The translations under genes were made by a program, and so were the position numbers. Under the pieces are notes generated by a model. The model did no database searches, was not told the origin of the DNA, and was given only the letters and a program-made list of their open reading frames with translations. Positions 20,203 to 36,212 of a stretch of DNA of 64,000 nucleotides are shown in pieces (the first letter of the stretch is position 1; every line of letters starts with the position of its first letter). Origin of the DNA: Marivibrio halodurans (GTDB taxonomy: Bacteria; Pseudomonadota; Alphaproteobacteria; UBA8366; Aestuariispiraceae). Where the stretch lies: assembly GCF_017963645.1 (NCBI RefSeq), contig NZ_JAGMWN010000002.1, forward strand, positions 372,001 through 436,000, read 5' to 3'.

Positions 20203-20889
20203 TCAATCGTTGTCGCTTAGTCCCGCCCCGGCGCCGGAGAGGCGGGAGCCGTCGCTGGCCGGCACATAGGTGCGGTGGGCGAGGCGTTCGGCGCGCGCCC
20301 ATACGCGGCGATCCACCGCGACCCCGCGCGCGATACGGGGTGTCGCCCTCTCGGAACGGGTGCCGCCGTCCGTCGCGGGACGGATGAGGATGTCGGCCTC
20401 CCCCGGCAGGCGGGGCAGGGGCCCGGTCGGCCCGTCCGGGGAAAGTTGGGTAATTGCCGGGTCTCCCCCTGGCGCGCCGCATGTCATTTCGAAGCGCCGC
20501 CCTTCCTCCGCCGCCGCGCGGGCGATGAAGGGGAGGAGCAGAAGCGGCGTCCGAACTATGTGGAGACGGATCGAGGCATCCGCCCGCCGCAGATCGAAGG
20601 CGAAATCGACGAGGGCCGTGCCGGCCGCGACGGGGCAGAGCGCGCCGCCCGCCGCCTGCCATAGACGCGCGCCGTCCGCGCCGGTCGTCTCGTGCGGGCG
20701 CAGCGTCTCATGCGCGCGGCCGTCGCGCCATTCCAGCAGGTCGACCAGGGCGGCGAGCCCCGGCTGGTCGTGCAGCGCCAGCCAGCGGGCGGCCTTGCCC
20801 GCCTCCTCCGCCAGCCCCCAGCTCATCCCGGCGCCGCGCGCGGCCTTGCGCGCCACCGCCTCGATCTCGTTCAGCGACGCGGCCAGCAT
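20203..20889 (-). CDS. DUF3726 domain-containing protein
   Basis: A 228-residue protein starting MLAASLNEIEAVARKAARGAGMSWG, which I recognise as DUF3726-like; the molecular function is unknown. It appears soluble, with mixed alpha/beta character (VDLLEWRDGRA ... LVDFAFDLRRAD ... RTPLLLLPFIARAAAEEG). Its start overlaps the stop of the 592-residue gene by one base (TGATG), so the pair is probably translated together. It is the last gene of the aldehyde dehydrogenase-dipeptidase-BCCT cluster. I infer a role in the same pathway from position only. Confidence 0.75.
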   Translation of the reverse strand: MLAASLNEIEAVARKAARGAGMSWGLAEEAGKAARWLALHDQPGLAALVDLLEWRDGRAHETLRPHETTGADGARLWQAAGGALCPVAAGTALVDFAFDLRRADASIRLHIVRTPLLLLPFIARAAAEEGRRFEMTCGAPGGDPAITQLSPDGPTGPLPRLPGEADILIRPATDGGTRSERATPRIARGVAVDRRVWARAERLAHRTYVPASDGSRLSGAGAGLSDND

Positions 20890-22667
20890 CAGATGTCCTC
20901 CGCGCCATCCAGGGGCGGATAGGCCCAGTCGTCGGCCGGCATGTCGGCCAACTCCTCCGGATAGGGGGCGTTCTGATACATCGTGATGCGGACCCACCGG
21001 TCGGATCGCGGATCGAAGCGCGTGGCGCCGAAGAAGCTTAACTTGCAGCGCAGCAGATCGATCGGCAGCAGCGCATCGGCGACCAGATTGTCCCTGATCT
21101 CCGCGTACGGGTGGTCGGCCAGGATTTGGACGCGGCGCGCGACATGGCGGTGTTCCGGCCGTTCGATCAGGAACCGGGCCAGCGGCTCCTCCGGTGGCCA
21201 GACGGAAAGATCGCGGTCGAGCGCCGCGACATCCCGCCCGACGGCCAGCGGTTGCTCCAACTCGGCCCCCGGCTCCTGCCGGCGTCGGCCGAGGCGGGGT
21301 TCCAGCTTCTCCTCCGAGACATACCAGAAATGATCCTGGGCTCCCGGCGCCGCGTAATCGATGGAAAGCGCCCAGTCGTAATGCATCGCGATCAGATCGC
21401 GCATCGCGCCGCAGGACAGTGCGCCGTCGATGCGGAAGCCGATCGTCTCGTCCGCCGCCATGCGCGTCGTCAGATCGTCCACCAGGGGGCCGTGCGGCTC
21501 GATCACCAAGCTCGCCAGCATCTCCTGCCCTTCCAGGGTGAAGCTGTCCTCGCCACGCCGGATCAACGCGTCCCAGGGATAGGCGCCATCGAGGAGACCG
21601 CCTTCGTCGAGCCATTCGGCCAGCCGGGCGAGGTCGGCGGCGAGGTCGGCGGTCCGGGCCGCCTGCCGCTCATCCCCGGTACGCCAGTCGGCGACGCCGG
21701 CGCGTGCGCGCCGGACGATGTCGTGGAAGGCCGTCTTCGCCCCGTCCTCCGCCCGGGGCAGGGCGCGCACGCGGGCCAGCGCCTCCTCCCGCGCGGCGAT
21801 CCAGCGATGCAGCAATTGCGGATGGGTCACCAGGAACGGCGCCATGCCGAGGCCGGTGGAATTGCCGACCCCGAGGCGCCGCCGCAGCGCGGGGTCGAGA
21901 CGCGCGGCGCGTCCCGGCGCGCCGTCGACCCGGCGATCGTTCTGATCGCGGGCCTGGGCCAAATGCTCCGCCAGATCGACGGTGAAGGCGCGGATCAGAT
22001 AAACGGCCAGCATCTCCGCCCGGAAGGGACCGGCGAGTTCGGGCCGGTCGCAGACCCGCTCCCGGTCGGCCAGGCCGAACTTGCCGTTGCCGTAGACCGC
22101 CGTCGTGCGCATCAGATAGCCGACGGCCTCGATCTCCGCGCGGTCGGGTTGGCGCCCCTCCGCCAGCCGGCCGACCACATGGTCGAAAAGCCGCACCGAC
22201 CGGTTCGCGCGGGAAAGGACGAGTTCCCGGTCGCTGACGCGGCCGGCCTCCTGGCGCGGAACGTTGGCTTCCAGGCGCGCGATGTCGGCCGCCGTCGGGG
22301 CCCCGTCGAACAGCGCGAAGGTCGCGTCCCACGCCTCCGCGATGACCCGGTCGGACCGGCTCTCGGGCGGCAGGTCGTGGGAGAAACAGACGAGGCTGTA
22401 GGCCCGCCCGTCCACCCGCACGCGATAGACGGCATGGCCGAAGCCCTCCGCGTCGATGGCCCAGACGGGCCGGTCGAAGCGCCAGGCATCCCGCTTCATC
22501 CGCCGCATCAGCGCGCGCATGAAGCTGAGCCGCGATTGATGGAAGGCACCCAACCGCGCCAGCCGCATCACCTGGACGGGCGGGCGCGGACCGGAGGGCA
22601 CGTGGCCGGTGGGGGCGCCGTCCGGCGCCTCCGCCCGGGGAAGGGGGGCTCGATCACCTGTCGTCAT
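20889..22667 (-). CDS. Unrecognised 592-residue protein of the BCCT/dipeptidase cluster
   Basis: I do not recognise this family. The protein is soluble, with no signal peptide or membrane segment, and rich in Arg, Asp and Glu. Striking stretches are the AYSLVCFSHDLPPESRSDRVIAEAWDATFALFDG block (about 86-119), YLMRTTAVYGNGKFGLADRERV (about 182-203), GVGNSTGLGMAPFLVTHP (about 270-287), and a Cys-Gly pair in IDGALSCGAMRDLIAMHYDWAL. A conserved-looking enzyme is likely. It is coupled to the DUF3726 gene and lies 97 bp behind the BCCT gene. I chose Met at 22667 because of a GAGAGGG element; 22682 is the alternative. Confidence 0.72.
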   Translation of the reverse strand: MTTGDRAPLPRAEAPDGAPTGHVPSGPRPPVQVMRLARLGAFHQSRLSFMRALMRRMKRDAWRFDRPVWAIDAEGFGHAVYRVRVDGRAYSLVCFSHDLPPESRSDRVIAEAWDATFALFDGAPTAADIARLEANVPRQEAGRVSDRELVLSRANRSVRLFDHVVGRLAEGRQPDRAEIEAVGYLMRTTAVYGNGKFGLADRERVCDRPELAGPFRAEMLAVYLIRAFTVDLAEHLAQARDQNDRRVDGAPGRAARLDPALRRRLGVGNSTGLGMAPFLVTHPQLLHRWIAAREEALARVRALPRAEDGAKTAFHDIVRRARAGVADWRTGDERQAARTADLAADLARLAEWLDEGGLLDGAYPWDALIRRGEDSFTLEGQEMLASLVIEPHGPLVDDLTTRMAADETIGFRIDGALSCGAMRDLIAMHYDWALSIDYAAPGAQDHFWYVSEEKLEPRLGRRRQEPGAELEQPLAVGRDVAALDRDLSVWPPEEPLARFLIERPEHRHVARRVQILADHPYAEIRDNLVADALLPIDLLRCKLSFFGATRFDPRSDRWVRITMYQNAPYPEELADMPADDWAYPPLDGAEDI

Positions 22668-22764
22668 CCAACCCTCTCGCATGATGGCCGGGGTCGCGCG
22701 GCCTGGGCGGAACCATGGTTCCCCACGCCGCGCGGCCCCGGCAACCTCGATTACGACGTCCCGG

Positions 22765-24336
22765 TCATTCGGCCGCCGTGGCCGCCGCCTCGCGCCGCTG
22801 CCGGCCGAGGGCGAGCACGATCCGCGCCGGGTCCCAGATGCTGGGCAACAGTACCAGCGAGACCGGCACCGCCGTCACCACGATGAAGCTTTGCAGCTTC
22901 GAGATGCCGCCGGAGCCGAGCGAGATCAGGATCAGCGCCATCGCGCCCATGGCCACGCCCCAGAAGACGCGGACCGGGGTGGAGGAGCGATCCTCGTCCG
23001 ACATCGCGACCGAGATGACATAGGTCATGGAATCGCCCGTGGTCGCCACGAAGATCGTGGTCAATGCCAGGAACAGCACCGAGACCAGGAAGCCGAGCGG
23101 CAGGTTCTGGGTGATCGCCAGCAGCGCGGCGGGCAGGTTGAAGCCTTCGAACGCGGTCGCGACCACGCCCGGTTCCGCCAGTTCGAAGGCGATGCCGGAG
23201 CCGCCCACGATGCTGAACCAGAAATTGGTCACCAACGGCGCGATGATGGACAGCATGATGATGATCGCGCGTACCGAGCGCCCGCGCGATACCCGCGCGA
23301 TGAACATCGCCATCATCGGCCCATAGCCCAGGAACCAGCCCCAGAAGAACACGGTCCACCAGCCGAGCCAGCCCGGATCGCCGAACAGCCCCGCATCGCC
23401 CCGGAACAACGCCATGGAGAAGAAGTTGGTCGCGTAGGTGCCGAGCCCGCCGAAGAACGCCTCCAGGATGAAGACGGTCGGCCCCGCGATCAGGATGAAG
23501 GCCAGTAGGATGAAGGCCAGGATCACGTTGACCCGGCTCAGGAACTGGATGCCGCGCGACAGGCCCGTGACGGCGGAGATGGTGTAGAGCGCGACCAGAC
23601 CCGCGACAACCACCGCCTGCGTGCCGAACCCGTCGGGGATGCCGAACAGCGTCTCCAGCCCATAGGAGACCTGGAGGCCCAGGAAACCGATCGGCCCGAC
23701 GGTGCCGGCGACCACCGCGATGATGCAGGACGCGTCGGCGATCCAGCCGATCGGCCCCTCGATCGCATGGCGTCCGAAGATCGGGTAGAGCAGCGTGCGC
23801 GGCGCCAGCGGCAGGCCCTTGTCATAGTGGTAATGCATCAGCATCACGGTCGTGAGCGATCCCAGGATCGCCCAGGCCAGGAAGCCCCAATGCATGAAGC
23901 TTTGCGCCATGGCGGGATAGGCGGCCTCGGGCGTGCTGGATTCCACGCCGAAGAGCGGGGGCGAGGAGAGGAAGTGCGCCATCGGCTCCCCCGCCGCCCA
24001 GAACACGCCGCCGCCGGCCAGCAGCGTGCACATGATCATCGCGGCCCATTGGAAGAGCGTGAATTCCGGCGTCTCCCGTCCGCCGAGCCGCGCCTTGGCG
24101 CCCGGCAGGAAGCAGATCACGAGGCCGATCAGGAAGGTCGCCAGCAGCAGCACCTGCCAATAGAGGCCGAAGAACCGCGCCGACCATCCGAAAGCGGTAT
24201 CGACCATGCCGCTCAACAGATCCAGATCGATCAGGGCCGTCAGGCAGAACACCAGGATGAACCCGCCCGTGATCGCGAATAACGGTTTGTTGATATGGCC
24301 GAGGTCCGCGCCCCCGCCTTGCTTGTCGTCCGACAT
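22765..24336 (-). CDS. BCCT-family transporter with altered aromatic box
   Basis: A 523-residue transporter with about 12 membrane helices. It belongs to the betaine-carnitine-choline transporter family, which imports quaternary ammonium or sulfonium zwitterions by Na+ or H+ symport. The family signature is visible at 325-354 (FFWGWFLGYGP then MMAMFIARVSRGR). Aligned by eye to BetP, the aromatic-box residues W374 and W377 are F335 and Y338 here, and BetP Y197 is L158. This suggests a substrate other than glycine betaine. There is no long osmosensory C-terminal tail, which fits uptake of a nutrient. It lies in the catabolic cluster. Confidence 0.92.
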   Translation of the reverse strand: MSDDKQGGGADLGHINKPLFAITGGFILVFCLTALIDLDLLSGMVDTAFGWSARFFGLYWQVLLLATFLIGLVICFLPGAKARLGGRETPEFTLFQWAAMIMCTLLAGGGVFWAAGEPMAHFLSSPPLFGVESSTPEAAYPAMAQSFMHWGFLAWAILGSLTTVMLMHYHYDKGLPLAPRTLLYPIFGRHAIEGPIGWIADASCIIAVVAGTVGPIGFLGLQVSYGLETLFGIPDGFGTQAVVVAGLVALYTISAVTGLSRGIQFLSRVNVILAFILLAFILIAGPTVFILEAFFGGLGTYATNFFSMALFRGDAGLFGDPGWLGWWTVFFWGWFLGYGPMMAMFIARVSRGRSVRAIIIMLSIIAPLVTNFWFSIVGGSGIAFELAEPGVVATAFEGFNLPAALLAITQNLPLGFLVSVLFLALTTIFVATTGDSMTYVISVAMSDEDRSSTPVRVFWGVAMGAMALILISLGSGGISKLQSFIVVTAVPVSLVLLPSIWDPARIVLALGRQRREAAATAAE

Positions 24337-24454: not shown

Positions 24455-25444
24455 TCACGGCGCGGCGGGACGAAAACTCTTCTCGAAGAAGGCGAGCCAG
24501 TTGCCCCCCATGATCCGGGCGACGTCCTCGGCCGAGAAACCGGCGGCGCGCAGCCCCTTCTCCACGGTCGGAAAATCGCGATTGTCGCGGAACCAGTCCG
24601 GCTGCCTCGGAAAGCCGGGATTGGCTTTCGATCCCTCCCCGAGATCGACGCCCTTGGTCCAGCGGCCGGAGCGCATCCAATCGACCACGCTGTCCGGCTG
24701 ATCCTGGACGAGGTCGCTGCCGATGCCGATATGCTCCATGCCCATCAGCTCGGCCGTGCGCGCGACCATGTCGCAGAAGCCGGAGAGCGTGCAGGCGCCG
24801 CCGTCCCTCAGATGATGGGGATAGAGCGAGAAGCCGAGCATCCCGCCCGACTGCCCCAGCGCGCGCAGCACGTCGTCCGACTTGTTGCGCAACGCCGCGT
24901 GCCAGGAGAGCGGGTTGGCGTGGGTGATGGCGATCGGGCGCGTCGAAAGCTCGATCGCCTCCAATGTCGACCGTTCGGCCGAATGCGACATGTCGACGAC
25001 GAGGCCGACCCGGTTCATCTCCCGGATCACCTCGCGCCCCATGCGGGTGATGCCGGGGTCCTCCGCCTCGTAGCAGCCGGTCGCCAGCAGCGATTGATTG
25101 TTATAGCTGAGCTGCATGAAGCGCGCGCCCAGCCGGTGCAGGATCTCGACCAGACCGATGTCGTCCTCCATCGGGCTGCAATTCTGGAAGCCGAAGAAGA
25201 TCGCCGTGCGGCCGGTTTTCCGGGCGATATCGACATCTTCCGCCCAATAGCCCGGCATGATCAGGTCGGCGTGACGCTCGAACCGGCGGTTCCATTCCTC
25301 GAACCGGGTCACGGTCTCGCGGAACAGCTCGTGATAGGCGATGGTGACATGGACCGCGTCGACCCCGCCCTTGCGCATCTGGCGGAAGATCTTCTCCGAC
25401 CAGTTGGCATATTGCAGGCAGTCGATGCGGATCGGCCGGGCCAT
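24455..25444 (-). CDS. Membrane-dipeptidase-like (renal dipeptidase family) hydrolase
   Basis: A 329-residue zinc-dependent hydrolase of the renal/membrane dipeptidase family (COG2355, amidohydrolase fold). Family features are ARKTGRTAIFFGFQN, the RFMQLSYNNQSLLATGC core, GLVVDMSHSAERSTLEAIELSTRPIAITHANPLSWHAALRNKSDD and HIGIGSDLV. A member of this family sits in glycine betaine catabolism operons of Pseudomonas, so such proteins are not always peptidases; the natural substrate here is unknown. There is no signal peptide. It starts five bases after the aldehyde dehydrogenase stop. Confidence 0.9.
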   Translation of the reverse strand: MARPIRIDCLQYANWSEKIFRQMRKGGVDAVHVTIAYHELFRETVTRFEEWNRRFERHADLIMPGYWAEDVDIARKTGRTAIFFGFQNCSPMEDDIGLVEILHRLGARFMQLSYNNQSLLATGCYEAEDPGITRMGREVIREMNRVGLVVDMSHSAERSTLEAIELSTRPIAITHANPLSWHAALRNKSDDVLRALGQSGGMLGFSLYPHHLRDGGACTLSGFCDMVARTAELMGMEHIGIGSDLVQDQPDSVVDWMRSGRWTKGVDLGEGSKANPGFPRQPDWFRDNRDFPTVEKGLRAAGFSAEDVARIMGGNWLAFFEKSFRPAAP

Positions 25445-25449
25445 GGCGG

Positions 25450-26904
25450 TCACTCCGGCGTGCCGGCCGCGATATAGGCCGTCTTGACGGTGGTATAGAA
25501 TTCCTTGGCATAGCGGCCCTGTTCGCGCGGGCCGAAGGAACTGTCGCCGCGCCCGCCGAAGGGCACGTGATAATCCGTGCCCGCCGTCGGCAGGTTGACC
25601 ATGACGCAGCCCGTGCGCGCGTTGCGCCGGAAATGATTGGCCCGGGCGAGCGAGCGCGTGACGATCCCCGATGTCAGGCCGAAGCGCGTGTCGTTGGCGA
25701 CCGTCAGCGCCTCCTCGTAGGAGCCGACCTTGATCACGCAGGCGATGGGCGCGAACATCTCCTCCCGGTTGATGCGCATGGCGTTGGTCGTGCCGGCATA
25801 GAGCGCCGGGGCCTGGTAATAGCCGTCCTGGGGAAGGGAGAGCCGTTCCCCGCCGCACAGATGCTCCGCGCCTTCCTCCTCGGCCAGCGCGACATAGGCG
25901 AGATTGGCCTCCAACTGCGCCGCGCTGACGACGGGGCCGATCTGCGTGCCGTCCGCCAGCGCATGGCCGACCTTGAGCGCGCGGACCGCGGCCGCCGTCT
26001 TCTCCACGAAGGCGTCATGCACGCCCTCATGCACGATCAGGCGCGAGGAGGCGGTGCATTTCTGGCCCGTGCCGCCATAGGCGCCGCCGACCGCGATCGA
26101 TACGGCGAGGTCGAGATCCGCGTCGTCCATCACGACCAGCGGGTTCTTGGAGCCCATCTCCATCTGCAGCTTGGTGCGGTTGACGGCGGCGGCGGCCGCG
26201 ATGGTCCGGCCGACCTCGACCGAGCCGGTGAAGCTGATCGCGTCCACCCCGTCGCTTTCCACCAGCGTCTGGCCGACGGAGCCGCCGGGCCCCATCACCA
26301 GATTGAAGGTCCCCGTCGGCAGCTTCGCCTGGCGCGAGACGATATCGGCCAACGCCCAGGCGCTCGCCGGGGTCTGGTTCGCGGGCTTCCACAAGACCGC
26401 GTTGCCGAAGGCCAGGGCCGGGGCAATCTTCCAAACCGCCGTCGCCATCGGGAAGTTCCAGGGGCTGATGATCGCGACGGTGCCGACCGGCTCGCGCCGC
26501 ACGTCGATCTCGACGCCCGGGCGGACGCTATCCGTCGTATCGCCGATCTGGCGCAGCACCTCGGCGGCGTAATAGGTGAAGAACTGACCGGCGCGATAGA
26601 CCTCGCCCTTGCCTTCGGCCAGTGGCTTGCCCTCCTCGCGGGAGAGCTGGCGGCCCAGTTCCTCGGCGCGCGCCTTCAATTCCTCCCCGATCGCCATCAG
26701 GGTGGCGTAGCGATCCTCCAATCCCGTGGCGGCCCAGGTCGGTTGGGCGGCGCGCGCGGCCTCGATCGCGCGACGGGTCTGGCCGGCATCCGCCTGGGCG
26801 AACTGGCCCAGGCTGTCGCTCAGATCGGAGGGGTTGCGGTTATCGACCGTGTCCGCGCCCGCGATCCATTCGCCCGCGATATAGTTCCGAAACTGCTCCG
26901 CCAT
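25450..26904 (-). CDS. Aldehyde dehydrogenase (NAD(P)+), cluster member
   Basis: A 484-residue aldehyde dehydrogenase that oxidises an aldehyde to an acid. It has the usual ALDH features: the cofactor segment SPWNFPMATAVWKIAPALAFGNAVLWKPANQTP, the catalytic Glu in LQMEMGSKNPLVVMDDADLDLAV, the catalytic Cys in YGGTGQKCTASSRL, and the closing NLPTAGTDYHVPFGGRGDSSFGPREQG. The last motif recalls alpha-ketoglutarate semialdehyde and betaine-type subfamilies. I chose Met at 26904 after a GAAGGAAAC ribosome-binding site; 26931 and 26979 are weaker. It is the promoter-proximal gene of the cluster. Confidence 0.94.
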   Translation of the reverse strand: MAEQFRNYIAGEWIAGADTVDNRNPSDLSDSLGQFAQADAGQTRRAIEAARAAQPTWAATGLEDRYATLMAIGEELKARAEELGRQLSREEGKPLAEGKGEVYRAGQFFTYYAAEVLRQIGDTTDSVRPGVEIDVRREPVGTVAIISPWNFPMATAVWKIAPALAFGNAVLWKPANQTPASAWALADIVSRQAKLPTGTFNLVMGPGGSVGQTLVESDGVDAISFTGSVEVGRTIAAAAAVNRTKLQMEMGSKNPLVVMDDADLDLAVSIAVGGAYGGTGQKCTASSRLIVHEGVHDAFVEKTAAAVRALKVGHALADGTQIGPVVSAAQLEANLAYVALAEEEGAEHLCGGERLSLPQDGYYQAPALYAGTTNAMRINREEMFAPIACVIKVGSYEEALTVANDTRFGLTSGIVTRSLARANHFRRNARTGCVMVNLPTAGTDYHVPFGGRGDSSFGPREQGRYAKEFYTTVKTAYIAAGTPE

Positions 26905-27027
26905 CGTTTCCTTCGCCTCTGCATCGATCATTACCGTCGCGTGACGGGCAGAGTGCGGAGTCGGCGAGTTTTCAGTCAAACGCGAAAAAATTCATGAAAT
27001 TTCAGAAAATCTGAATATTCTGTGATC
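26905..27027. promoter_or_regulatory. Divergent ALDH/LysR promoter with stacked palindromes
   Basis: This 123-bp region holds a dense set of dyads next to the LysR start. They are TTCATGAA (26991-26998), TGAAATTTCA (26995-27004) and TTCAGAAAATCTGAA (27001-27015, 6-bp arms around AAA). The last contains a T-N11-A LysR box (27002-27014). It is AT-rich relative to the flanks, which fits binding of the LysR protein and control of both directions. Confidence 0.65.
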
Positions 27028-27948
27028 ATGAGCCTGTCCCTGAATGCCCTTCGCGCCTTCGCGGTCACCGCCGATACCGGGTCGGTGACGCGGGCGGCGG
27101 AGATTCTGCATCGCACGCCCTCGGCCGTCTCCATGACCCTGAAGCAGTTGGAGGCGGAGATCGGTCCCCCCCTGTTCGAGGGGGAGCGGAAGGGCACCCT
27201 GACCCCGACCGGCCATGCGGTGTTGGCGGAGGCGCGGGCCGCGCTCGACCGGTTCGACCGGGCGGAGGCCGCGATTCGCGCCCATGCGGCCGGGGCTGCG
27301 GGGCGTCTGGTGCTTTCCGCGACACCGTCGGCGACGACGCATCTTCTGCCGGAGGCGCTGGTCGCCTTCCGCGCGCGCTTTCCGGACGTGGAGATCGATC
27401 TGCACGACGCCGACAGTGCCCGCGTGGCGGAGGAACTGCTGGCCGGGACGGTGGAACTCGGCATCGCCAGCGCGCCGACGACGGCGCAGGGCCTCGCCTT
27501 TCAACCGCTCTACCGCGACGCGCTCGGCCTTGTCTGCCGGGCCGACGACCCGCTGGCCGCCATGACCGGGCCGATCGGGTGGGCGCATCTGACCGGCCGC
27601 ACGGTCATGGCCCATGCATTGAGCCCCTCGACCCCGCTCCCCTCGGCGGGTGGCGCGACGTCCCACGGCGACGAGGGGGCGGTGACCGCGCGTACGGTGA
27701 CGGCGGCGCTGGCCCTGGTCCGCGCCGGGCTGGGCGTTACCATCCTGCCGCGCCTGACGGTGCCGGGGGCGGATGGCGATCTCGCCTTCGTGGAGATGGA
27801 CGGCGCGTCCGCGCCGCCCCGCACCGTCGGCCTGCTGACGCGGAAGGGAGAGAGCCTGTCGGCGCCCGCGCGCATGTTCCTGGAGACGCTCGGCCCCTGT
27901 CTCGACCGCTTGGCCGGGCGCCTGGGCGGAACGTTCGAGCGTCTATAG
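27028..27948 (+). CDS. LysR-family transcriptional regulator
   Basis: A 306-residue LysR-type regulator. The N-terminal winged HTH (LNALRAFAVTADTGSVTRAAEILHRTPSAVSMTLKQLEAEIGPPLFEGERKG, about 5-57) is followed by a linker helix and a substrate-binding domain (about 90-295) that should bind the effector. It is divergent from the aldehyde dehydrogenase and very likely activates or represses the 20.2-26.9 kb cluster in answer to its substrate. I chose ATG at 27028; GTG at 27022 is also possible. The stop is only six bases from the convergent proS. Confidence 0.92.
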   Translation: MSLSLNALRAFAVTADTGSVTRAAEILHRTPSAVSMTLKQLEAEIGPPLFEGERKGTLTPTGHAVLAEARAALDRFDRAEAAIRAHAAGAAGRLVLSATPSATTHLLPEALVAFRARFPDVEIDLHDADSARVAEELLAGTVELGIASAPTTAQGLAFQPLYRDALGLVCRADDPLAAMTGPIGWAHLTGRTVMAHALSPSTPLPSAGGATSHGDEGAVTARTVTAALALVRAGLGVTILPRLTVPGADGDLAFVEMDGASAPPRTVGLLTRKGESLSAPARMFLETLGPCLDRLAGRLGGTFERL

Positions 27949-32355: not shown

Positions 32356-34455
32356 ATGGCGACACGAATCGTCGGCTGCGATGTCGGCGGCACCTTCACC
32401 GATCTGATCCTGCTCGAGACCGGGGGGGATGGCGCGCCGGGAAGCGGGAGCGGGAGGGATGCCGTCCGCACGCGCACCCGCATCGCCAAGGTGCCGACCA
32501 CCCTCGACAATCAGGCGTTCGGGGTGCTGCGCGCGCTGGAGGCCGCCGACGCGGCGCCGGAGACGCTGGATGCGCTGGTCCACGGCACGACGACGACGAC
32601 CAATGCGCTGCTGGAGCGTAAGCTGGCCAGGACCGGGCTGATCACCACCAGGGGATTCCGCGATGTGCTGGAACTGGGCCGGCGCACGCGGCCCAGCAGC
32701 TATGGGTTGAAGGGCGGGTTCACGCCGTTGATCCCGCGCGAATTGCGCCTTGAGGTGGCGGAGCGGATGGATGCCGACGGCGGCGTCGTCATCCCGCTGG
32801 ACGAGGCGGCGGTGCGCGCGGCGGCGGAACAGTTGGCGGCGGCGGGTTGCCAGGCGCTGGTGATCCATTTCCTGCATGCCTACAAGAATCCCGCCCATGA
32901 GCGCCGCGCGATGGAGATCGCGCGCGATGTCTGGCCCAACGCCTATGTCACCGCCGGCCATCAGGTCCTGAGCGAATATCGCGAATATGAGCGCGGCGTG
33001 ACCGCGACCGTGAATGCCGCCGTGCAACCGATCCTGGAGCGTTATATCGCCCGGCTGGTAGCGGAACTCTCGGGGCGCGGCTATCGCCACGACCTGCTGG
33101 TAATGCAGGGTAACGGCGGCGTCGTCTCCGGCCGCATCGTGGCGGAGAGCGCGGTCAACACGGTGATGTCCGGCCCGGCCTCCGGCGTGATGGCGGCGGC
33201 CTATACGGGCGCCGCGGCGGGGCACCCAAACCTCGTCACCTTCGACATGGGCGGGACGAGTTGCGATGTCGGCCTGATCAAGGACGGCGTGCCTCAGGTC
33301 TCCAACGAGTTGGAGATCGAATACGCCATGCCGGTCCATGTTCCGATGGTGGATGTCCACACGATCGGCGCCGGCGGCGGCTCCATCGCCGCGATCGACG
33401 AGGGCGGCCTGCTGCGTGTCGGACCGGAAAGCGCGGGCGCGACGCCCGGTCCCATCTGCTATGGCCGGGGCGGGGAGGCGCCGACCATCACGGACGCCAA
33501 TCTGGTGCTCGGCCGGCTCGACGCGCAGGCGCTGCTCGCCGTCGACAATCCGGTCGGGATAGAGGATGTGCGCGCGGCGATCGCGACGCGGCTCGGCGCG
33601 CCCCTCGGCCTGTCCTGGGAGGAGGCGGCGGGCGCCATTCTGCGCATCGCCAACGACAAGATGGCGGGCGCGGTGCGCATGGTATCGCTCTCGCGCGGGC
33701 ACGATCCGCGCGATTTCGCGCTCTTCCCCTTCGGTGGGGCGGGGCCGTTGCACGCCGCGGCCATCGCGCGCGAACTCGGCATCCCCAGCCTGCTGGTGCC
33801 CGCGCGGCCGGGGATCACCAACGCGCTCGGCTGCGTGGTGGCGGATGTGCGTCACGACTATGTGCAGACGATCAACGAGCCGCTCGACAAGGTGGATATG
33901 GACCTCGTTCACCGCACGCTGGCCGATCAGATCGCGGCGGGCCGCGAGACCATCGCCCGCGAGGGGGTCTCGGTCGAGGATATCCGGATCGTCCACGGCG
34001 CCGACATGCAGTTCGTCGGGCAGAGCCATCTGCTCTCCGTGCCCCTCGCGGAGGCCGGGGTCGATCGCGGAACGCTGCAAGACGCCTTCGAATGGGTCTA
34101 TTGGGAACGGTTCGAGGTCGCCCTGCCGGAAATCAAGGCGAACCTCGTCAACCTGCACACGGCCGTTATCGGCAAGCGGCCGGCGGTCGATCTTTCCAAC
34201 CTGATCGACGAGGAGCGGGCGGCCGATCTTGACGGCGCGCGCCTCGGCCGGCGATCGGTCTGGTTCGAGGGCGAGGGCTGGGTCGACACGCCGCGCTATG
34301 CCCGGGGCAAGCTGGCCGCCGGGTTCGAGATCGAAGGCCCCGCGATCGTCGAGCAGCTCGACACCACGGTCCTGATCGAACCCGGCATGCGCGCCGTGGT
34401 CGATGTGCTGGGCAATCTCGAAATCCGGATAGAAGCCCGGACCGGGAGGGGATGA
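32356..34455 (+). CDS. hyuA: Hydantoinase/oxoprolinase subunit A
   Basis: A 699-residue ATP-dependent ring-opening amidohydrolase subunit of the HyuA/5-oxoprolinase/acetone carboxylase beta family. It begins VGCDVGGTFTDLIL with a sugar-kinase/Hsp70-like phosphate-binding loop, and carries the second phosphate motif FDMGGTSCDVGLI and the GHDPRDFALFPFGGAGPLHA segment. It acts with HyuB on hydantoins, 5-oxoproline or related lactams; the substrate is unknown. The stop overlaps the hyuB start by four bases. Confidence 0.94.
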   Translation: MATRIVGCDVGGTFTDLILLETGGDGAPGSGSGRDAVRTRTRIAKVPTTLDNQAFGVLRALEAADAAPETLDALVHGTTTTTNALLERKLARTGLITTRGFRDVLELGRRTRPSSYGLKGGFTPLIPRELRLEVAERMDADGGVVIPLDEAAVRAAAEQLAAAGCQALVIHFLHAYKNPAHERRAMEIARDVWPNAYVTAGHQVLSEYREYERGVTATVNAAVQPILERYIARLVAELSGRGYRHDLLVMQGNGGVVSGRIVAESAVNTVMSGPASGVMAAAYTGAAAGHPNLVTFDMGGTSCDVGLIKDGVPQVSNELEIEYAMPVHVPMVDVHTIGAGGGSIAAIDEGGLLRVGPESAGATPGPICYGRGGEAPTITDANLVLGRLDAQALLAVDNPVGIEDVRAAIATRLGAPLGLSWEEAAGAILRIANDKMAGAVRMVSLSRGHDPRDFALFPFGGAGPLHAAAIARELGIPSLLVPARPGITNALGCVVADVRHDYVQTINEPLDKVDMDLVHRTLADQIAAGRETIAREGVSVEDIRIVHGADMQFVGQSHLLSVPLAEAGVDRGTLQDAFEWVYWERFEVALPEIKANLVNLHTAVIGKRPAVDLSNLIDEERAADLDGARLGRRSVWFEGEGWVDTPRYARGKLAAGFEIEGPAIVEQLDTTVLIEPGMRAVVDVLGNLEIRIEARTGRG

Positions 34456-36212
34456 GCATGGCGGAGGCGAAGGATATGGCGGACGAAACCGCGATCGACC
34501 CCGTGACCCTGACGGTGATTCAGAACGGCCTCGCCCAGGTCTGCAACGAGATGGACCTGGCCTTCTGCCGGGCGGCCTTCTCGCCGGTCATCTCGGAGGC
34601 GATGGACCGTTCCGACGGGATCTATGCCGCCGGGGACGGTGCGCTGATCGCGCAGGGCGATCTCGGCCTGCCGGTTTTCGTCGGCACCATGCAATACGGC
34701 ACCCAGGCGGTGATCGAGCGGGTGACGGACCCAAGGCCCGACGATGTCGTCATCTGCAACGACCCCTATCTGGGCGGCACGCATCTGATGGATGTGCGGT
34801 TCTATCGGCCGTTCTTCTATCGGGGGGAGTTGTTCTGCTGGCTCGCCAATACCGGCCATTGGCCGGATACGGGCGGGATGGTGCCGGGCGGTTTCTCCGC
34901 GCGCGCGACGGAGGTCGAGCAGGAGGGGCTGCGCCTGCCGCCGGTGAAACTCTTCAAGCAGGGCGAACTCGATCCCGAGATTCTGGCGATCATCCAATCG
35001 AATATCCGCATCTCCGAACAGCGCATCGGCGATATCAAGGCCCAGGCGGCGGCGCTGAAGATCGGAGATAAGCGGCTGACGGCGCTGCTGGACCGCTATG
35101 GGGCGGAGACGGTGAAGGCGGCGATCGCCCAGCTCCGCGCGCGTTCCAGCCAACTGATGCGCGCCAAGATCGCCACCATCCCCGACGGCACCTATGAGGG
35201 CGAGGCCTTCGTCGATAGCGACGGCGTGGTGGACGAGCCGCTGCGCATCGCCATGCGCATCACGGTCGCGGGCGAGGAAATGACCTTCGACATGTCGGAA
35301 AGCTCGCCACCCTGCCGCGGGCCGATGAACAGCGTGATCGCAACGACGCGTTCCTCCGTCTATCTGGCGATGAAGCACATCTTCCCCGACGTGCCGCTGA
35401 ATGCCGGAACCTACGAGCCGCTGCATATTGTCGATCCCCGGGGCACCTTCCTCTATGCGGAATATCCGCGTCCCGTTTCCGGCTGCGCGGCAGAGGTGTC
35501 CCAACGCATCGCGGAGGCGGTGTTCGCCGCGCTGACCAAGGCTATTCCGGACCAGCTCTTCGCCGCGCCGGCGGGCTCCAGCGGCAATTTCGCGCTCGGT
35601 GGGCACGACCCGGTGAAGGGACGGTCCTATGTGATGTATGTGATCTCCGGCGGCGGCTATGGCGGCTATGCCGAGGGGGATGGCCTCACGAACGGCTGCT
35701 CCACCATCGGGATTTCCAAGTCCCAGCCGGTCGAGGTGTTGGAGCAGTATTTCCCCGTCCTCTTCCACGAATATGCGTTGCATGAGGGCTCGGGCGGGGC
35801 GGGCGCGTCGCGCGGTGGCTTCGGGCTCAACTATGCGCTCTCCGTCCGGCGGGGGGAGGCGCGGGCCTCCATGGTGATGGATCACGGCCGCACCGGCCCG
35901 CAGGGTGTGCTGGGCGGTAAGGACGGCGGGCCGAACAGGGTGCGCGTCGATTTCGCCGACGGGAAAAGTCACGCGCCCGCCCATCTCTCGAAGGATCAGG
36001 ATATCGCCATCGGGCCGGGCGACGTGGTGCGGGTCTCCACCCCCGGCGGGGGCGGATATGGCGCGCCCTTCGCGCGCGATCCGGCCAAGGTGGCCGCCGA
36101 CGTCGCGCGCGGCTATTACAGCGCCGAGGAGGCGGCCGCCCTGTTCGGCGTCGCGCTCGACGAGGGCGGCGTGGTGGACGCGGCCGCGACCGCGCGGCTG
36201 CGCGGGACGTGA
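34452..36212 (+). CDS. hyuB: Hydantoinase/oxoprolinase subunit B
   Basis: A 586-residue partner of HyuA, with the typical NDPYLGGTHLMDVRFYRPFF motif, GHWPDTGGMVPGGFSARATEVEQEGLRLPPVKL, and a glycine-rich end (VVRVSTPGGGGYGAPFARDP). The pair opens a cyclic amide using ATP in this family. The ATGA overlap with hyuA points to translational coupling. No transporter is attached, so the source of substrate is unclear. Confidence 0.94.
   Translation: MSMAEAKDMADETAIDPVTLTVIQNGLAQVCNEMDLAFCRAAFSPVISEAMDRSDGIYAAGDGALIAQGDLGLPVFVGTMQYGTQAVIERVTDPRPDDVVICNDPYLGGTHLMDVRFYRPFFYRGELFCWLANTGHWPDTGGMVPGGFSARATEVEQEGLRLPPVKLFKQGELDPEILAIIQSNIRISEQRIGDIKAQAAALKIGDKRLTALLDRYGAETVKAAIAQLRARSSQLMRAKIATIPDGTYEGEAFVDSDGVVDEPLRIAMRITVAGEEMTFDMSESSPPCRGPMNSVIATTRSSVYLAMKHIFPDVPLNAGTYEPLHIVDPRGTFLYAEYPRPVSGCAAEVSQRIAEAVFAALTKAIPDQLFAAPAGSSGNFALGGHDPVKGRSYVMYVISGGGYGGYAEGDGLTNGCSTIGISKSQPVEVLEQYFPVLFHEYALHEGSGGAGASRGGFGLNYALSVRRGEARASMVMDHGRTGPQGVLGGKDGGPNRVRVDFADGKSHAPAHLSKDQDIAIGPGDVVRVSTPGGGGYGAPFARDPAKVAADVARGYYSAEEAAALFGVALDEGGVVDAAATARLRGT

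Follow-up and report, generated by a model that had tools for sequence, protein, structure and literature searches.

A conserved two-gene unit in a betaine-type catabolic operon of Marivibrio halodurans as a candidate ring opener for homarine

The Marivibrio halodurans gene P0001 is a real and conserved gene that is functionally tied to the adjacent DUF3726 gene and to a betaine-type catabolic operon. We propose that the substrate broken down by this operon is an N-methylated pyridine carboxylate, with homarine as the likeliest candidate, and that the products of P0001 and the DUF3726 gene form a two-subunit ring opener; we give this proposal about an even chance of being correct. The gene content of the operon, the pairing of the two genes, their fusions, the fold of the partner protein and the nearest families of the neighbouring proteins were all computed. 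Within the window, meaning the whole 64,000-nucleotide stretch that was analyzed, the operon extends over 27028-20203 and comprises the following features.

27028..27948, plus strand: LysR-type regulator, divergent from the operon, in the same arrangement in many homologous loci
25450..26931, minus strand: aldehyde dehydrogenase, with 2,5-dioxovalerate / alpha-ketoglutaric semialdehyde dehydrogenase as its closest NCBIfam models
24455..25444, minus strand: M19 membrane-dipeptidase-family metal amidohydrolase (PF01244, E 1.5e-73), proposed N-formyl hydrolase
22765..24336, minus strand: BCCT family (betaine-type) transporter
20889..22667, minus strand: P0001, 592 aa, family not known, putative catalytic subunit of the ring-opening enzyme
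20887..20891, minus strand: TGATG stop-start overlap of P0001 and DUF3726, translational coupling
20203..20889, minus strand: DUF3726 partner (P0002), 228 aa, apparently Ldh_2-derived, without the NAD lobe or the SHG histidine

Evidence that P0001 is a functional gene came from its composition and its divergence. The frame (window 20889-22667, minus strand) consists of 592 codons and a TGA stop codon, with no internal stop; an ATG five codons upstream, at 22682, is also a possible start. GC content at the three codon positions is 0.76/0.50/0.87, and comparison with the orthologue from the same genus (75-76% identity) gave a dN of ~0.18, a dS of ~0.71 and a dN/dS of ~0.26. These data argue that the frame is a coding sequence under purifying selection, as expected from an earlier, sequence-only reading of this DNA that had claimed a full-length coding sequence; that reading had also named a pseudogene as the finding that would speak against it, and codon-position GC and dN/dS rule this out. 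A 591-aa open reading frame on the plus strand (21111-22886), antisense to P0001, was rejected as a high-GC shadow on the same two measures, and is one that automatic gene callers could take for a gene.

The overlap with DUF3726 that had been noted earlier can be read directly: the TGA of P0001 (20891-20889) and the ATG of DUF3726 (20889-20887) have one base in common, and an ATGA or TGATG overlap terminates 84 of 140 P0001-type open reading frames. A scan of genome contigs confirmed at least 575 relatives of P0001. In the best 80 of these, a census biased to close relatives, DUF3726 is directly downstream of P0001 or fused to it at every locus (80/80). The two genes are naturally fused at four loci of the main clade (L031, L084, L085 and L089) and again in the distant L037. 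The earlier suggestion that the coupling marks subunits is supported by both the constant pairing and the fusions. Distant clades with no Pfam-visible DUF3726 have a 231-317-aa partner in the same position, and these partners have in common a C-terminal tail that follows the pattern AP/TP.[ST]..SR..[GH]AG; at one locus, L035, the partner gene begins after the dipeptidase gene. In a predicted model of the L085 fusion, the P0001 half is of low quality (pTM 0.59) and only the DUF3726 half is reliable, and we therefore claim no interface between the two proteins.

The DUF3726 half of this model (pLDDT mostly 86-98) is predicted to have the same fold as Ldh_2, the type 2 malate/lactate dehydrogenase family that includes DpkA, YiaK and AllD. 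It matched all 15 Ldh_2 entries listed with Z scores of 10.7-13.8, against 4.6 for the next unrelated family; Foldseek gave the same ranking, with Ldh_2 first and a best E of just 0.02-0.05. Sequence comparisons give independent, though weak, support for this relationship. The window protein matches PF12525 (E 5e-22) and has no match to PF02615 in Pfam, while the Natrinema partner matches PF02615 (E 4.8e-9, 36.2 bits against a cut-off of 38.8), the sole match among the distant partners tested. A profile comparison of DUF3726 with Ldh_2 aligned the first 55 residues with a probability of 41%. The differences between the families are also clear. DUF3726 is ~210 aa long and Ldh_2 335 aa, the missing part being the central ~120-145 residues that correspond to the NAD lobe; in alignments, the catalytic histidine of the SHG motif is replaced by a GLPG-type sequence; and DUF3726 has a conserved C-terminal tail of its own (AP.[ST]..SR..GAG). 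Given the fold match and the loss of both the histidine and the lobe, the model of DUF3726 is best read as a derivative of Ldh_2 that is no longer a dehydrogenase.

P0001 itself resembles no described family. Its sequence matches no Pfam family up to E 10 and no NCBIfam model, and PDB sequences contain no relative by single sequence or by a 24-sequence family profile (rows with E >0.5 being chance). The predicted structure is confident (mean pLDDT 90.7, pTM 0.91); searched as a whole chain, it has no Foldseek match at E<=0.001 and a best VIA Z of 4.2 over 145 residues. The N-domains of ornithine cyclodeaminase and pyrroline-2-carboxylate reductase were considered as fold relatives and rejected as too weak (Z 3.3-3.7). 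Thus, the earlier description of a protein of no recognised family agrees with the Pfam, NCBIfam, PDB sequence and fold searches, and the fold comparison proposed with it yielded a confident model that matches no solved structure over the whole chain. Since the fold search used the whole chain, the absence of a match is not proof of a new fold.

Across 24 diverse homologues, with identity down to 27%, the invariant residues of P0001 are R107, D114, R143, S157, L168, Q173, P174, Y184, R187, G195, G198, R226, G266, G268, N269, G274, P283, W448, S451, R458, R512, G547 and P568. The sequence-only reading had proposed looking for invariant Cys, His, Asp and Arg; the alignment has one such Asp (D114) and several Arg, and no invariant Cys or His, which makes a classical metal site unlikely. 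That reading had also pointed to three repeated, conserved-looking motifs. YGNGKFG and GVGNSTGLGMAPF are indeed conserved, and contain the invariant G195, G198, G266, G268, N269 and G274; IDGALSCGAM is mostly variable across the homologues, and the motifs are not repeats of each other.

Of 385 genomes sampled from the class, 53 carry a relative of P0001, as do 168 plasmid records, which belong to roseobacters, rhizobia, Pseudomonas, Caballeronia and the haloarchaeon Natrinema; the viral collection searched contained no relative on any contig. The 80 loci include SAR116 single cells and acidimicrobial and gammaproteobacterial bins, and the family extends to actinobacteria.

The conserved order of the neighbouring genes is LysR, aldehyde dehydrogenase, M19 dipeptidase, BCCT or betaine-ABC transporter, P0001 and DUF3726, followed by a DpkA-like Ldh2 or RidA. 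At the loci of the best 80 of at least 575 relatives, the M19 gene lies upstream of P0001 in 70 and an aldehyde dehydrogenase gene is present in 51. P0001 therefore sits in a conserved catabolic operon of transporter, dehydrogenase, amidohydrolase and regulator, in line with the substrate-specific cluster suggested previously. The window aldehyde dehydrogenase scores 484 and 464 bits against models of C5 dioxo-acid semialdehyde dehydrogenases, below their cut-offs, and 309 bits against 2-hydroxymuconic semialdehyde dehydrogenase. In Anderseniella (L067:8926-9951), the M19 slot beside P0001 is filled by an HDAC-family amidohydrolase (PF00850) unrelated to M19, and an amide-type intermediate is therefore likely.

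The Ldh2 encoded in the clusters has as its best PDB relative 1wtj, a delta1-piperideine-2-carboxylate reductase (E 1.6e-97, 330 bits against 226 for the next). Two papers describe the DpkA class as combining methylamine with 2-oxo acids to form N-methyl amino acids (PMC6110843, PMC8070496). Among the 385 class genomes, P0001 is present in 22 of the 24 with a member of the close Ldh2 subfamily (at least 290 bits) and in 31 of the 361 others (p 3e-19); part of this association is linkage, because the Ldh2 query came from the cluster. Ldh2 and P0001 lie on different contigs in at least four of those genomes (G057, G064, G117 and G338). Around the pair, Ldh2 and RidA come close to mutual exclusion (1/27 vs 15/56, p 0.016).

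The substrate, each reaction step, the identity of the catalytic subunit and the cofactor are what we infer from this gene content. As a set, the betaine-type transporter, the C5 semialdehyde-type aldehyde dehydrogenase, the amidohydrolase and the imine reductase, which is of the class that forms N-methyl amino acids, would suit a route in which the ring of N-methylpicolinate is cleaved at C5-C6, and the ring-opening role is proposed for P0001 and DUF3726 because they are the sole proteins of the set without an assigned step. The BCCT transporter would take up the substrate, most probably homarine (N-methylpicolinate). P0001/DUF3726 would then dearomatise the ring and open it at C5-C6, giving N-formyl-N-methyl-2-amino-5-oxopent-2-enoate; by stoichiometry this would require a reductant and O2, and P0001 would have to act with no conserved Cys/His metal site. 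The aldehyde dehydrogenase would oxidise the C5 aldehyde to the acid and the M19 amidohydrolase would take off the N-formyl group, leaving the enamine/imine of 2-oxoglutarate and methylamine. This product could be reduced by the DpkA-like Ldh2 to N-methylglutamate, which an Mgd or sarcosine-oxidase-type enzyme would convert to glutamate, or it could be hydrolysed by RidA to 2-oxoglutarate. DUF3726, with the Ldh_2 core retained and the NAD lobe and catalytic His lost, would be a structural or substrate-holding subunit.

A parallel for such a route is the trigonelline pathway of Acinetobacter baylyi (TgnAB/TgnC/TgnD), where two-component opening of an N-methylpyridinium carboxylate gives an N-formyl aldehyde that is processed by an aldehyde dehydrogenase and a hydrolase. 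By analogy, the proposed homarine route may pass through an N-formyl aldehyde and the same two types of enzyme. TgnA is a flavin monooxygenase and TgnB a flavin reductase; neither P0001 nor DUF3726 matches these families, and in Pfam at E <=10 P0001 has no family match to flavin-dependent ring-opening monooxygenases of the TgnA/luciferase type. Some observations count against the proposal: no structural or sequence match of P0001 to any enzyme was found, the operon conserves neither a flavin reductase nor an oxygenase as partner, and the window operon has no Ldh2, its genome encoding just a distant one (35%).

We considered three other explanations. The one with most in its favor, although we give it only about one chance in four, is that the same enzyme logic serves another cyclic or quaternary betaine, such as trigonelline, pipecolate betaine or proline betaine, with homologous clades differing in substrate. 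Transporters do differ between loci (BCCT, ProU-type, PotD-type and branched-chain-type), and distant clades (27-36% identity) have AA_synth, CMD and aldo/keto reductase genes in Bosea and M. ciceri; however, the DpkA-like imine reductase and the C5 semialdehyde-type aldehyde dehydrogenase fit a carboxylate at the picolinate position better than at the nicotinate position. It is rather improbable that P0001 and DUF3726 are instead accessory to another, unlinked enzyme, as chaperone, sensor or assembly factor. While P0001 carries no recognised catalytic signature and DUF3726 resembles a dead dehydrogenase, P0001 is the sole large protein of the conserved set without an assignment, many of its Arg, Tyr, Trp, Asn, Gln and Asp residues are invariant over ~30% identity, and the streamlined genome L040 keeps just dipeptidase, P0001 and DUF3726 together. 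Least probable, by a little, is hydrolytic opening without O2, where the pair would add water at C6 and open N-C6 to give N-methyl-2-aminomuconate semialdehyde, for oxidation by the aldehyde dehydrogenase and deamination by RidA: the lack of a conserved metal site or flavin partner and the presence in some clusters of RidA, whose family includes the 2-aminomuconate deaminases, favor it, but it leaves the near-universal M19/HDAC amidohydrolase without a role, and the aldehyde dehydrogenase is closer to C5 than to C6 semialdehyde models.

Homarine, N-methylpicolinate, is an abundant marine metabolite. A homarine catabolic operon, named homABCDER, was reportedly described by Ferrer-Gonzalez et al. 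in Nat Microbiol in 2026; it is said to be conserved in Rhodobacterales, SAR11 and SAR116, and to yield N-methylglutamate that is handled by Mgd. The P0001 family has an overlapping distribution, with members from Rhodobacterales, SAR116 single cells (L078 and L092) and genomes of 1.2-1.6 Mb. Going by these taxa and this product, the P0001 operon may be the same operon; the pathway would then not be new, and the novelty would lie in the descent of DUF3726 from Ldh_2 and in a P0001 without a recognisable fold. Rapid consumption of homarine by Ruegeria pomeroyi has been demonstrated (PMC12817926), and another paper states that Mgd is reported in homarine catabolism (PMC13390433).

If the ring-opening proposal is correct, a reaction would be assigned to two dark families, the unnamed ~560-aa family and DUF3726, both of which span marine Rhodobacterales, SAR116, streamlined ocean bacteria, rhizobia, actinobacteria and haloarchaea. 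It would also identify the reaction with which homarine breakdown probably starts, and a dehydrogenase fold would have been recruited as a non-redox subunit. A bolder version, which we hold tentatively and think closer to one chance in three, is that P0001 is the founder of an enzyme superfamily of novel fold, able to open N-methylpyridinium rings although it has no classical metal site, and active only with a structural or substrate-holding subunit derived from a dehydrogenase that has lost its NAD lobe.

Several other genes lie close to these clusters or in the same genomes. In favor of the proposed route, a SoxA-type operon lies beside the P0001 cluster of TM1040, of P. italicus, of L111 and of a streamlined genome of 1.6 Mb, and the loci with adjoining SoxBDAG-type operons are L033, L039, L097 and L111. 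The window genome has a second sarcosine-oxidase-type operon (L149; G000 contig 15, 162000-178000), whose neighbours, from N-termini read by eye, look like a gamma-butyrobetaine hydroxylase and a CaiB-type CoA transferase. A HyuA/HyuB hydantoinase/oxoprolinase pair is encoded on the plus strand of the window at 32356-36209, 4.4 kb beyond the LysR gene of the cluster, and a HyuA/HyuB-type pair lies ~6 kb from the P0001-like gene of Natrinema (L053). Finally, a distant P0001 clade (L055 and L057, 27-30% identity) has genes for PF06684 AA_synth, an alpha/beta hydrolase, an aldo/keto reductase and a carboxymuconolactone-decarboxylase-like protein nearby, company that suggests another substrate.
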